Shown here: positions 308 to 5,760 of the stretch, one piece after another | Layout: each line of letters opens with the position of its first letter | Numbering within the stretch: the stretch's first letter is position 1 | Origin: Desulfobacterales bacterium | GTDB lineage: Bacteria; Desulfobacterota; Desulfobacteria; Desulfobacterales; JAFDCJ01 | Assembly (NCBI GenBank): GCA_020345785.1 | Contig: CP070771.1 | Location: 1,497,842-1,503,601 of the forward strand | Direction: 5' to 3' | Length of the DNA: 5,760 nucleotides | The notes under the pieces: model-generated | Told to the model about the DNA's origin: nothing | Database searches by the model: none | The model's input: the letters and a program-made list of their open reading frames with translations, nothing else | Made by a program: the position numbers and the translations under genes

Positions 308-629
308 TCATGCTGGTTTTTCAGCGCGGAACAAAACACCTTTGGTTTTGGGGGTACTGTTAAAACCAGTTTTACCTGCGAGTTCAACCTGTTGAAAGCC
401 GACTTTTCCCAATAAGGCCAGGAAATCCTTTCCCCACGCCACAATACGAGGAAGCAACCTCATTTGGGAGTTTTCCGATCAGATTTTTGTCATACTTTCG
501 CGCTTCAAGGCCTTTTATGCCGGTAGGATAATTAAATTGCCCATCCGGACTGATAGCAACTTTAGCATACTTTTCCCGAATACCTTCTTCGATTTTTCTG
601 AGATCTTCCGTAGTGATTTGAGAATACAT
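308..629 (-). pseudogene. Remnant of SAM-dependent methyltransferase (arsenite methyltransferase-like), internal deletion plus frameshift
   Basis: The N-terminal part (ATG at 627-629) reads like the start of the arsM/UbiE-type methyltransferases found in arsenic and thiol-stress operons: an amphipathic helix (EEGIREKYAKVA), then YPTGIKGLEARKYD and SSYCGVG, where the family normally continues CGVGNPF. Instead the frame runs nine more unrelated codons to a TGA at 384-386. In the +1 frame the sequence continues as VAWGKDFLALLGKVGFQQVE and GKTGFNSTPKTKGVLFRAEK to a TGA at 308-310, a typical C-terminus of the same family. So both ends are present while the SAM-binding core and catalytic cysteines (normally well over 100 residues) are gone. 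The joint lies near 428-442. The frame is open further upstream to an ATG at 726-728 that overlaps the stop of the selenoprotein gene; I prefer the internal ATG because family similarity starts there, although its ribosome-binding site (GGA) is weak. Family assignment is from remembered motifs. Confidence 0.75.
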
Positions 630-720: not shown

Positions 721-2463
721 TTATCCATCGCGTTCGGATTTCATCAAATCAGACATGCGATTCAAAAACTGATCGGGCGGCAAAAAGTCCACCAGTCGCA
801 GGTTGGGAAGCTCTCGCCCCTGTGCATCTAAAAAGACAACGGTGGGTACGCCCTTGATGTCATACTGTTTCAGCAGGCGTTCGTGAACCGGGTTCCCTGC
901 CCGGGTGACGTCCACTTTGATCATTGTAAAATGACTTTCTGCGTGTTTGACCACGTCGGGGTGATGGAAGGTGGCCTCTTCGAGTTCGCGGCAGGGGCTG
1001 CACCAGTCAGCATAAAAATCGATGATCACTGGTTTGTTTGCGTTTTTTGATTCCGCTAACAGTTGATTCGAGTAGATATTCCAGGTCACCCCGGGCCCCT
1101 GCAGGAACCAGTTCCCAACCAGCAGAGTAGGTATGACAACGGCTGCGATTCCAACAGCAGTCCTAATCCATTCAAATGCGCGGAAGTTGGCCTTTGTTTT
1201 ATCGATCCAGCCCAAATGGAGCCCCGCGGCCAAAGCCAGAGCTGCTGAAAAGAAAACGCCGGCCGTTTTTGGTAAAACCGACCCGATAAAATAAACCGCC
1301 ATTCCCACCAGAACCCAACCCATGAGTTTTCTGACCCAGAACATCCATTCGCCCAAGCGGGGAAGCCTGCTGATGTTTCCCGAAAAGACGGCTAAAAAGA
1401 AAAGCGGCAGTCCGAGACCGAGACTTAAGGTAAAGAAGACGATGAAACCAAGCCACGCGCTTCCCAGGCCGGCAACCCAGGTCAACAACCCCAGCACGAA
1501 GGGACCGATGCATGGCGCGGCGACAATCCCCATGGTAAGTCCCATGAAAAGGGCGCCCAAATATCCGGCATAGGTTTTTGACGCTGCCTGCATCAGGTTG
1601 CCGGGAAGGCGCAGTTGCCACCATCCAAAAAGGCTTGTGGCCATTAGCACCAATATCGCTGCCACAAAGACAAGTACCAAGGGGTTTTGTAGCATTGCCC
1701 CCATCAGTCCGCCTGTCAGGGCCGCAACAACTCCCAGAGTCGAATTAGTGATTGATAATCCTGCAATGTAACACAACCCATGGCCGATCAACCGACGCTT
1801 ACCGCTTCTTCCACCGAAATAGGAAATCGTTACGGGAATCAGGGGATAGACACACGGAGTCAGATTCAGGGCCATGCCGCCAGCGAATATACCCAGCAGC
1901 GTCCAGATCATGGCCCAGCCGTATAGCGCTCCCGGTGCTTCCGGCTGTTTTTCCATGCCGGCAAGTCCCGCCGGTGCTGTTTCTACGGGCAGGTTCTTTG
2001 CCTGCCACTGGGGGTATCCCAGAGGATCGCGAAAGACATTTTTATAACCAAGCTGCACAGCTGCCCGAGCTGCCGAGTCGCTTCGGACTCATGTCAACCC
2101 GGCTCAGTAAAACACGATTGACCGGCCTTTATCCTCGCCCAATAACTTTTCCAGATCCGCCTTTTTACGCCAACGTGCCAGCCAAGTAGGTTCCATGGGA
2201 AAGTTAACGGCCCCTTGAATATGGCCGGTTCGGTACTCCCATTCTTGACGGGTATCAACCACAAGCAGACTGCCCCGGCCTTTGTTGTACCGTTTCCATA
2301 AATCGTCGGTTGAAATGAGCTGATAGCCGCCTTTTTCCGCTTCAATCACGACGTCTGGCCAAGTCGCCTCTTTGGGGAAGACCGCACGATTGGTCAGCCA
2401 CAAGACCCCCACGGTCACAGCAATGGCTGCAAGGGCCAGAAGGGTTCGTTTTCCATTTCTCAT
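721..2463 (-). CDS. Rhodanese-DsbD-thioredoxin fusion selenoprotein with two selenocysteines (UGA at codons 120 and 125)
   Basis: Seen: one frame of 580 codons interrupted only by two TGA codons, giving the rhodanese loop FYUAGLTU. Domains: a positively charged start and one hydrophobic anchor (about residues 6-24); a periplasmic rhodanese domain (about 45-155, VVDTRQEWEYRTGHIQGAVN, then GYKNVFRDPLGYPQW after the active loop); a DsbD-like membrane domain of about eight helices with the two redox cysteines Cys204 (NLTPCVYP) and Cys318 (AAPCIGPF); and a C-terminal thioredoxin domain with WCSPC (Cys488, Cys491) and the cis-Pro GVPT at about 540. In ordinary DsbD an Ig-like alpha domain stands where rhodanese stands here. 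Start chosen: ATG 2461-2463, with AAAGG about 7 nt upstream, 52 nt after the regulator; the upstream extension would run into that gene. Known: DsbD moves electrons from cytoplasmic thioredoxin to periplasmic partners. Inferred: the attached domains reduce the Sec pair, serving persulfide, polysulfide or thiophilic-element chemistry. Cleaving at the TGAs would give two useless halves with the active loop lost. Confidence 0.88.
2058..2072 (-). promoter_or_regulatory. bSECIS-like hairpin 2 (serves the TGA at 2089-2091)
   Basis: On the mRNA, CAGCU (2072-2068) pairs with AGCUG (2062-2058) around the 5-nt loop CGGGC; one further G-U pair is possible. The loop begins 22 nt after the second UGA and again has G as second base. 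It lies directly after hairpin 1, so each UGA has its own correctly spaced stem-loop. CAGCU occurs three times nearby, so alternative pairings exist. Confidence 0.6.
2075..2091 (-). promoter_or_regulatory. bSECIS-like hairpin 1 (serves the TGA at 2104-2106)
   Basis: On the mRNA, GAGUC (2090-2086) pairs perfectly with GACUC (2079-2075) around the 6-nt loop CGAAGC; a U-G pair extends the stem by one. The loop begins 19 nt after the first UGA and has G as its second base, matching what I recall of the bacterial SECIS consensus (small apical loop, G within its first two bases, 16-37 nt from the UGA). The second UGA is itself in the 5' arm. An alternative longer pairing of GCCGGG with CUCGGC is possible. 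Confidence 0.65.
2089..2091 (-). other. In-frame TGA, proposed selenocysteine 125 (second loop position)
   Basis: This second TGA lies exactly five codons after the first. It aligns with the second Cys of the C-x4-C loop seen in the neighbouring ArsR-rhodanese protein. The frame then continues VRSDSAARAAVQLGYKNVFR, a normal rhodanese C-terminal half. A second hairpin has its apical loop starting 22 nt downstream of this codon. Confidence 0.85.
2104..2106 (-). other. In-frame TGA, proposed selenocysteine 120 (rhodanese catalytic position)
   Basis: This TGA replaces the catalytic cysteine of the rhodanese loop. The upstream frame ends in SIVFY and the frame continues AGLT. In the adjacent regulator the equivalent loop is VAYCRGPYC, so the codon aligns with the first Cys. 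A bacterial-SECIS-like hairpin has its apical loop starting 19 nt downstream of the TGA. Confidence 0.87.
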
Positions 2464-2515: not shown

Positions 2516-3187
2516 TCAATCGCCGATCTCCACCGGCAGACCCATTGCCCGCCAATCCTGAATGCCCTCTTCAAGGCGAATTGCTTTAAAACCCTGTCCG
2601 CGCAGCATCTCGACAGCCTCCATAGCAAGCACGCAGTACGGTCCTCGGCAGTAGGCGACAATCTCCTGATCCCTTGGTAATTTGGATAACAGTTCTTTCA
2701 AGCGCCCTAATGGAACCGATAGTGCGCCGGGAATATGACCTGCCTTGTATTCATCCACAGGTCGAACATCTAAAACGGTGACGCCGCCCTCGATCACACG
2801 CTTCAGCAGGTCGTTTCTATTTACCGGTTCCATACCCTCTCTGCCTTCTAAGAAACGACGTTTGATCATATCTACTTCTGCCAATCGGTGTTCCGCCAAC
2901 ACGCGCATGGTTCGGAAAAACTCGCACACCATCTCATCCGCAAGGCGGTATTTGACGTAGAGACCCTCTTTTTCCGCCTTGACCAGCCGTGCCGCTCTGA
3001 GTGTCTGCAGGTGTTGCGATGTATTGGCCAATGTTAGATCGGTTTCCTTTGAAAGGGTTTCAACCGTTTTCTCACCCTGGCAGAGCAGGTCGAGCATTTC
3101 TAATCGCTTGGGGCTCGATACTGCTTTACCAATTCTTGCAAATTGTTCGTAAATGGCATCCTTGAATTGTCGGCTTGGGTTTTTCAT
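2516..3187 (-). CDS. ArsR/SmtB-family regulator fused to a rhodanese domain
   Basis: A 223-aa cytoplasmic transcription regulator. Residues about 14-85 form the winged helix: SSPKRLEMLDLL, then the recognition helix region TLANTSQHLQTLRAARLV (52-69) and wing EKEGLYVKYRL. Residues about 120-220 form a rhodanese domain with VLDVRPVDEYKAGHIPGA and the active loop VAYCRGPYC (Cys180, Cys185), ending in the usual DWRAMGLPVE. Length and domain order fit the known ArsR-rhodanese family. Start ATG 3185-3187, with GAGG 8 nt upstream. It is the first gene of the operon and its own promoter carries an inverted repeat, so autorepression is likely. The ligand is not visible: classical ArsR metal-site CVC motifs are absent, so sensing through the rhodanese cysteines (persulfide) or through Cys36 and Cys88 is an inference. 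It also gives an internal Cys reference for the Sec positions of the next gene. Confidence 0.93.
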   Translation of the reverse strand: MKNPSRQFKDAIYEQFARIGKAVSSPKRLEMLDLLCQGEKTVETLSKETDLTLANTSQHLQTLRAARLVKAEKEGLYVKYRLADEMVCEFFRTMRVLAEHRLAEVDMIKRRFLEGREGMEPVNRNDLLKRVIEGGVTVLDVRPVDEYKAGHIPGALSVPLGRLKELLSKLPRDQEIVAYCRGPYCVLAMEAVEMLRGQGFKAIRLEEGIQDWRAMGLPVEIGD

Positions 3188-4264: not shown

Positions 4265-5143
4265 ATGTTCTATCCCCTTGAGCCACCCCGCCCTACGCCG
4301 GGGAAAAAGCAGGCGGCGGCGCTGGTGATTTTGAACCCTGCGCAGTCGCGCAGACTCGTCGCCAAGGGGGCGGTGGCCTGCCCCATCGTCCAAAACGCCT
4401 ATCGCAACGGCCTGATTATCATTGCCCGAGGCATCACCAATGCTTATGTCATCGAGGAACTCTTCAACATTACCATCGAAAACAAGGCCAATCAGACCGT
4501 GGGTTTTGTAGGGCAGGGCATGACCAACGTTTCGGCCACTCCGCCGCCTTCGACCTTGCATGTCATCGAGAGGGGCCATGTCATCGAAGGGGCCGACTCC
4601 AATGTGGAGATTCTCAGGTTCAAGAAGGGCGATGTTCTCATAAAGGGGGCGAATGCCATCGACCACACCGGCCTGACTGCCACTTGCGCCTCTTCGCTCA
4701 AATGCGGCACTATGGGCATGTCTTGGCCGATCATCACTCCTCGGGGAGGCGAATTTATCATCCCGGTAAGTTTGGAAAAGATGGTTCCCTCCGTCATGAC
4801 CGCGGCCCAACACACCGGCGTTTATCATTTCAAATACTCGATGGGCCTGCCGGTCAAGCTTGTTCCCCTACTTGAAGCCAAGGCCATTACCGAAATCGAG
4901 GCTCTGGCCCTGCTGTGCGGTGTGACCGCCTATCACGTCGGTTCCGGAGGCGTGGCCGGCTCGGAAGGCTCGATCCACTTATCTCTCGAAGGGGATGAAG
5001 ATAAGATCGAACAGGCCATGGAATTGGTCAGATCTCTTGGTGATGAACCGCCGGTTACCATGCCCGACAAATACAGGATCGCCGATCCGGCGGAATACGA
5101 TTATGACGCCCAAGCCCAATTGGACGTTTTAGGAGGAATCTGA
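4265..5143 (+). CDS. Conserved-looking protein of unknown function, 292 aa
   Basis: A clear gene: ATG preceded by AAGGAG about 8 nt upstream, GC-rich coding sequence unlike its AT-rich flanks, and stop at 5141-5143. No signal peptide or membrane segment is evident, so it is probably cytoplasmic. Visible elements: GLIIIARGITNAYVIEEL (49-66) looks like a beta strand with a loop and a helix; GDVLIKGANAID (122-133); three cysteines at 141, 147 and 218; a glycine-rich turn with GSGGVAGSEGS (226-236); then IHLSLEGDEDKIEQAMELVR (237-256), a strand-helix unit reminiscent of small ferredoxin-like or ACT-type modules. I have seen similar hypothetical proteins in sulfate reducers and methanogens but cannot name the family, so no function is offered. 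It stands alone on the plus strand with about 240 nt of unexplained leader. A 265-codon antisense frame over its 5' half is a shadow. Confidence 0.88.
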   Translation: MFYPLEPPRPTPGKKQAAALVILNPAQSRRLVAKGAVACPIVQNAYRNGLIIIARGITNAYVIEELFNITIENKANQTVGFVGQGMTNVSATPPPSTLHVIERGHVIEGADSNVEILRFKKGDVLIKGANAIDHTGLTATCASSLKCGTMGMSWPIITPRGGEFIIPVSLEKMVPSVMTAAQHTGVYHFKYSMGLPVKLVPLLEAKAITEIEALALLCGVTAYHVGSGGVAGSEGSIHLSLEGDEDKIEQAMELVRSLGDEPPVTMPDKYRIADPAEYDYDAQAQLDVLGGI

Positions 5144-5453: not shown

Positions 5454-5760
5454 ATGGCAAATAGTAAAGTTCAGCGATTCAAATGGGACGATATGCCCAA
5501 AGAGAAACTTAACGATCTCATTGACAGGAGAATTATCACCGGTGAAAAGGTTATGCTGACGCATGTCTATTTGAAAAAAGGTGCCGTGGTGCCAATGCAT
5601 TCGCATGCCAATGAGCAAATCACATATCTCTTAGAGGGAAAGCTCAAGTTCTGGATTGAAAGCGAGGATGCGGATCCCATAACGGTTGGCCCGGGTGAAG
5701 TGCTAATCCTGCCGTCTAATCTTTCCCATAAGGCAGAGGCACTTGAGGATACTTTAGACG
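5454..5760 (+). CDS. Small single-domain cupin protein, 3' end cut by window
   Basis: The ATG at 5454-5456 follows AAAGGG with a 7-nt gap. At least 102 codons are present and the frame is open at the window edge. Cupin motif 1 is visible as G43, HSHANEQ (His49, His51, Glu54) and G62; motif 2 as G81, ILP (Pro87) and His92 in LSHKAEA. His49, His51, Glu54 and His92 are the expected metal ligands of the beta barrel. The family (HSH-x2-EQ variants) includes many small proteins of about 110 aa with unassigned substrates, so only a metal-binding cupin can be claimed. It may be a stand-alone gene; no link to the 292-aa protein is shown beyond shared strand. Confidence 0.88.
   Translation, partial: MANSKVQRFKWDDMPKEKLNDLIDRRIITGEKVMLTHVYLKKGAVVPMHSHANEQITYLLEGKLKFWIESEDADPITVGPGEVLILPSNLSHKAEALEDTLD

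Follow-up and report, generated by a model that had tools for sequence, protein, structure and literature searches.

The window, that is, the whole stretch of 5,760 nt analyzed here, contains on its minus strand a gene which, by its sequence, is a member of the already named TsoB family of selenoproteins. We consider it probable that this is one gene whose two in-frame UGA codons are both likely read as selenocysteine (Sec), and that its product is a predicted inner-membrane electron relay leading through a DsbD-like core to a rhodanese domain with a U-x4-U motif. The sequence comparisons themselves establish the family membership, the conservation of the UGAs, the order of the domains, the cysteines of the core and the synonymous selection past the second UGA.

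Two open reading frames (ORFs) that appear separate, located at 2104-2661 and 721-2058 (both on the minus strand), lie in the same frame and make one gene when joined. The initial annotation had proposed that they be joined by reading two TGA codons, and its coordinates and counts hold. The resulting TsoB coding sequence (721..2463, minus strand; frame reading and match to NF045694) extends from an ATG at 2463 to a TAA at 721 and comprises 580 codons, the sole internal stops being the TGAs at codons 120 and 125, as had been claimed. The first of them (UGA1, 2104..2106, minus strand) occupies the first position of a loop and the second (UGA2, 2089..2091, minus strand) the last one, and from the frame and the relatives both are predicted to encode Sec. 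A wholesale reassignment of TGA was rejected: the gene for the adjacent regulator (2516-3187) and the ORF at 4265-5143 both grow longer when TGA is read through, and therefore each of them ends in TGA.

When compared with the NCBIfam model NF045694, the 580-residue reading scores 990 bits (cut-off 805) over profile positions 2-571 of 572; the halves of the gene, scored separately, give 769.8 and 151.6 bits, both under that cut-off. The source paper for TsoB is said to be that of Haft and Tolstoy, published in mSystems in 2025. NF045694 corresponds to seleno_TsoB, "rhodanese/DsbD fusion-like selenoprotein TsoB", with a UxxxxU motif and two Sec residues, as listed in the accessible part of a 2026 review (PMC13188914). 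The window gene has TGA at both loop positions of this motif, codons 120 and 125. The suggestion that such a fusion might be undescribed therefore has to be dropped, as it is already catalogued under that name. That part of the review gives no function for TsoB, and what is added here to the listing found in it are the hairpins, a positional match to the C-x4-C motif of DsbD and a variant gene neighbourhood. The window protein shares with TsoB the domain order, the U-x4-U motif and the two predicted Sec residues, and differs in its neighbours: an ArsR-rhodanese gene replaces the upstream TsoR and TsoA, and no TsoC was found within the window.

Upon merging duplicates and leaving out matches with less than 45% identity in the rhodanese stretch, 35 distinct relatives remained, of which 34 have TGA at the two sites and one (L111) has Cys at both; a further locus, L015, starts only behind a masked stretch and was left out of this scoring. 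Carriers of TsoB include a cultured organism, Desulfacinum infernum DSM 9756 (L013). On genome contigs 80 loci were found, 15 of which include the rhodanese part, each of these with TGA at the two positions. When 395 genomes evenly sampled from the phylum were examined, 23 TsoB matches over the cut-off turned up in 22 genomes; exactly two internal TGAs occur in 22 of these matches and none in the other one (G291:C128). Between the two TGAs, the window and the 34 TGA-containing relatives have Ala at codon 121 (34/35), Gly at codon 122 (35/35, four codons in use), Leu at codon 123 (35/35, five codons in use) and Thr (19), Ala (15) or Ser (1) at codon 124. As codons 121-123 keep their residues while changing synonymously, the stretch between the TGAs looks translated, and this pattern, together with the conserved TGAs, speaks against a chance pair of mutations; the initial annotation had likewise held it implausible that two nonsense mutations should fall by chance on both loop positions. 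A pseudogene with two nonsense mutations, to which the splitting of the gene under the standard code and the ArsM-type remnant next door could point, is scarcely conceivable, since the TGAs shared among relatives from separate genomes refute it for the TsoB family, no further stop occurs in 580 codons, and Ala, Gly and Leu are kept at codons 121-123 under synonymous variation.

In a protein search, the 7,998 candidates with the most words in common with the query were scored and 120 of them listed. Among the matches listed, two database proteins have Cys at both sites (P0011, CTGQTC; P0018, CAGPDC). An alignment with homologues, proposed earlier as a check, finds Cys at both sites in P0011, P0018 and L111, the last of which reads CAGPDC and is identical to P0018 at 574/578. 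A full-length TsoB relative among the matches listed (P0061) reads GHGLAR; as it has Gly and Arg at the Sec sites, the redox pair can be lost, both residues together. Genome G291 holds both the Cys-Cys TsoB (L111) and a Sec-Sec TsoB (L112), and the Cys copy retains one of the two RNA hairpins described below (hairpin 2) and a weakened form of the other one (hairpin 1), as though it descended from a Sec form.

If translation stopped at UGA1 and restarted at GTG 2058 or later, the gene would yield a shortened rhodanese alongside a separate DsbD core, with little or no full-length protein. Two database proteins among the matches listed, P0002 and P0003, begin after the TGAs, and some termination at UGA is expected under selenium scarcity, a point that counts for such a split. 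Against it, residues R127, S128, D129, A131, A132 and R133, which precede GTG 2058 (codon 136), are invariant in 22 Sec and non-Sec forms, full-length Cys forms exist, and inspection by eye finds no obvious ribosome-binding site ahead of GTG 2058. Taking into account the conserved residues between UGA2 and GTG 2058 and the full-length Cys forms, the split-gene reading was rejected, and we regard it as highly improbable. The single two-Sec rhodanese-DsbD-thioredoxin protein put forward in the initial annotation is strongly supported by the match to NF045694, the TGAs of the relatives, the Cys forms, the constraint on the RNA and the Sec machinery of the relatives.

With respect to this machinery, SelB scored over the cut-off in 32 of the 33 TsoB genomes of relatives (13/14 and 19/19; in G001 it is split into two pieces) and in 2 of 14 control genomes, and SelA in 30 of the 33 and in one of the 14 controls. 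tRNA-Sec was over the gathering threshold in 28/33 TsoB genomes and 5/14 controls and, as it passes in these five, is the least specific of the three tests. Many of the 33 genomes are fragmented, and genes missing from them carry little weight. No tRNA was found in the window.

Synonymous constraint was tested at 279 columns in 32 of 36 genes, L012, L016, L103 and the Cys form L111 being left out. When runs of ten scored codons are compared over the whole gene, codons 126-135, directly past UGA2, come out as the most constrained, and the five most constrained of the 279 columns (codons 126, 134, 129, 132 and 130) all fall within this run. The constraint is gone by codon 136. Two hairpins are predicted in this region on an alignment of 35 rows (A1, without L111). 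Hairpin 1 (2075..2090, minus strand; A1 columns 17-32) takes in its stem the GA of UGA2, and its apical loop lies 18 nt past UGA1. Hairpin 2 (2057..2073, minus strand; A1 columns 34-50) is SECIS-like, with its apical loop 21 nt past UGA2 and 36 nt past UGA1.

Hairpin 2 is well supported by the comparison of relatives. Its pair 36-48 is GC in 23 sequences, AU in 7, CG in 3 and otherwise in 2, and its pair 39-45 is CG in 32 and UA in 3, so that compensatory changes at third codon positions are found in 10/35 and 3/35 sequences, respectively. As a control, the partner was slid by one to three columns; of the six slides, one left three cells and the others left no compensatory change. Out of the five pair measures, three lie above all 500 shuffles and two do not, pairs with two-sided changes being reached by 135/500 shuffles and further pair types by 483/500. 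The RNAalifold consensus keeps hairpin 2 and pairs the region of hairpin 1 otherwise.

In the accessible part of the review, the bSECIS model is given as a loop of 3-9 nt, a stem of 4-16 bp, a G within the first two loop bases, a distance of 16-37 nt from the UGA, an MFE <= -7.5 and a G[G|U] loop (PMC13188914). Positions 2 and 3 of the hairpin 2 loop are G followed by G or U in 35/35 sequences, matching G[G|U], whereas in the remainder of these genes Arg codons end in G or U in 49% of cases. Both hairpins of the window fit the model in loop, stem, G and spacing, with energies of -6.8 (hairpin 2) and -6.5 (hairpin 1) versus -7.5, and folded together they give -13.4 kcal/mol. Hairpin 2 reaches -7.5 kcal/mol in 30/35 sequences, that of the window falling short, and hairpin 1 in 0/35.

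We infer hairpin 1 less firmly. Across the 35 sequences it has no compensatory change, the sequence itself being conserved; it has fewer than five pairs in four of them (L011, L012, L096 and L098), and its loop has G followed by G or U in 7/35 only. Folded as a single sequence, the window RNA has no unusual stability (z -0.92), and the fold of minimum energy predicted for it is not the two-hairpin structure. A search of the window with Rfam gave three weak matches below gathering elsewhere and none at the hairpins. The most degraded hairpin 1 of the set is that of L012 (1339-3078), a TsoB relative whose frame is broken after residue 301.

Either each UGA would have a hairpin of its own, or hairpin 2 would be shared, hairpin 1 then acting as a spacer which opens up once UGA2 is reached. 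We put forward only tentatively, as a possibility on the unlikely side, that hairpin 2 is the one SECIS decoding both UGAs, which are 15 nt apart. Hairpin 1, built round UGA2, would then fold the RNA so that hairpin 2 sits 14 unpaired nt from UGA1; upon melting of hairpin 1 by the ribosome, hairpin 2 would sit 15 nt from UGA2. What points to this arrangement is that covariation and the G[G/U] loop are found in hairpin 2 alone, and that those forming hairpin 1 belong to the codons of the gene with the strongest synonymous constraint. The selection on the RNA past two close UGAs and the covarying hairpin bear on how bacteria decode two successive selenocysteines.

As had been proposed, the joined reading completes a rhodanese domain (residues 52-156; 1996..2310, minus strand), which is recognized by Pfam (PF00581, 57.3 bits, gathering cut-off 22.2; E 2.3e-15) and by comparison with solved folds. 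In the predicted structure, a model of moderate confidence (mean pLDDT 75.6, pTM 0.53), both TGAs lie inside the loop flanked by strand 115-119 and helix 127-137, which we take to be the usual site of the rhodanese catalytic loop. Ahead of this domain, a predicted N-terminal helix (residues 4-25; 2389..2454, minus strand) may act as a membrane anchor. The rhodanese domain is followed by the DsbD transmembrane domain DsbD_TM (Pfam; residues 186-396; 1276..1908, minus strand), with C204 and C318, and by a C-terminal thioredoxin-fold domain (Pfam and solved folds; residues 461-547; 823..1083, minus strand) with CSPC at 488-491. Among solved folds, the C-terminal domain comes closest to DsbD gamma and the N-terminal domain to rhodaneses. 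C204, C318, C488 and C491 are invariant in 22/22 aligned proteins and correspond to the relay cysteines of DsbD.

The window protein scores 260.9 bits with the DsbD model NF001419, below the cut-off of 330. It resembles DsbD (NF001419/PRK00293) in its membrane core, where both relay cysteines are present, and in its C-terminal thioredoxin domain; the outer domain of DsbD relatives has C-x4-C, whereas that of TsoB is a U-x4-U rhodanese. Among the 80 loci, 65 are not TsoB and were used as DsbD relatives; 20 of them lack the exact core motif sought, which leaves 45 readable ones. In 41 of these 45, the domain that precedes the membrane core has a C-x4-C, at 70 to 133 residues before the core motif, and in the four without the pair merely 22-60 residues are readable upstream of that motif. 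In TsoB the core motif is at residue 200, and codon 120 thus lies 80 residues before it. As DsbD relatives have C-x4-C where TsoB has U-x4-U, the rhodanese domain has probably taken the place of the DsbD outer (alpha) domain, U120 and U125 being by analogy the putative redox pair of this rhodanese outer domain.

The gene located 52 bp upstream of TsoB (2516..3187, minus strand) encodes a regulator with an ArsR-type HTH and a rhodanese domain (Pfam/NCBIfam). The initial annotation had set the U-x4-U of TsoB beside a C-x4-C in this protein, which indeed reads CRGPYC. Compared with TsoR, it scores 48.6 bits, below the cut-off of 115. The usual gene order is TsoR-TsoA-TsoB-TsoC, as in G364; in the 33 TsoB genomes, TsoA scores over the cut-off in 24, TsoC in 30 and TsoR in 21, and the over-cut-off matches to TsoA and TsoC have one internal TGA each. 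This arrangement, which accompanies TsoB and does not define it, was not found within the window, and a tblastn search with 11 TsoA and 10 TsoC proteins, confined to these 5.8 kb of the genome, gave a best E of 0.37. The window presents TsoB beside an ArsR-rhodanese regulator, without adjoining TsoA and TsoC. Homologues of this regulator (E <= 1e-25) are found in 5/33 TsoB genomes, in three of them (G001, G002 and G007) directly upstream of TsoB. As G002 gave no match to TsoA, TsoC or TsoR at the thresholds used, TsoB may act without them, unless that draft is incomplete.

Downstream of TsoB and not part of it lies an ArsM-type selenoprotein remnant (314..629, minus strand; NF041536). Its N-terminal piece (423-629) covers 69 positions of NF041536 with 91 bits and its C-terminal piece (314-436) covers 40 positions with 55 bits; both are in different frames and the middle is missing. 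On the plus strand, the ORF at 4265-5143 (292 residues) matches no model of Pfam or NCBIfam at the thresholds applied; that at 5454-5759, a cupin-domain ORF, runs off the window.

The ArsR-type regulator upstream of TsoB and the ArsM-type remnant downstream of it would fit a gene that serves the handling of arsenic or other metalloids, as would the ACR3 genes adjoining TsoB in G020 and TsoB-TsoC in G001. ACR3 is present in 30 of the 33 TsoB genomes, yet it stands beside the TsoB genes in these two only (in a third one it is at 6.5 kb), and ArsR-type proteins sense many things, so that a role in metalloid handling appears improbable. In G020 (L121, 7796-9631, minus strand) TsoB is immediately preceded, on its own strand, by genes for the arsenite pump ACR3 and for a CcdA-like protein; the ACR3 gene of G001 (L001, 6688-7743, minus strand) faces TsoB-TsoC.

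For the two-Sec membrane relay we propose the following mechanism. The SECIS hairpins directly after the UGAs would be used for decoding. The N-terminal helix would tether the rhodanese domain to the periplasmic face of the membrane, a topology drawn by analogy. Electrons, likewise by analogy, would be handed by cytoplasmic thioredoxin to C204 and C318, then to the thioredoxin domain with its CSPC motif, and from it to U120 and U125, a pair that would alternate between the diselenide form and two selenols. Taking the place of the C-x4-C alpha domain of DsbD, the rhodanese domain would reduce an extracytoplasmic substrate, and tsoB is probably under the control of the ArsR-rhodanese protein encoded next to it. 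From the position of U-x4-U, where DsbD relatives have C-x4-C, the electron relay of the membrane is predicted to end in a domain that carries a diselenide.

The same two-Sec protein might instead serve sulfur or selenium transfer, U120 carrying a perselenide or forming a selenosulfide which the relay would merely reset. This would suit a domain that is a true rhodanese, and the adjacent regulator also has one. A second Sec at the last position of the loop fits a dithiol-type redox pair better, as does the C-x4-C at the matching place of DsbD relatives, and we therefore judge a transfer function, as far as sequence comparisons can tell, rather unlikely, if well worth considering.

Two further groups of selenoproteins can be set beside the proposed TsoB relay. 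One comprises peroxiredoxin-like (Prx-like) proteins with a UxxU motif, which we take to be tied to the SelL diselenide family. They have, like TsoB, two Sec per redox motif, but according to the accessible part of their description (PMC2398784) the spacing is two residues versus four in TsoB, and they are peroxiredoxin-like, without a membrane relay. The other group is that of the remaining rhodanese selenoproteins (forms 1-4 in the accessible part of PMC13188914), which have Sec within the rhodanese domain, as TsoB has, and, unlike it, carry one Sec each, in the motifs UxxS, UxxG and CxU.
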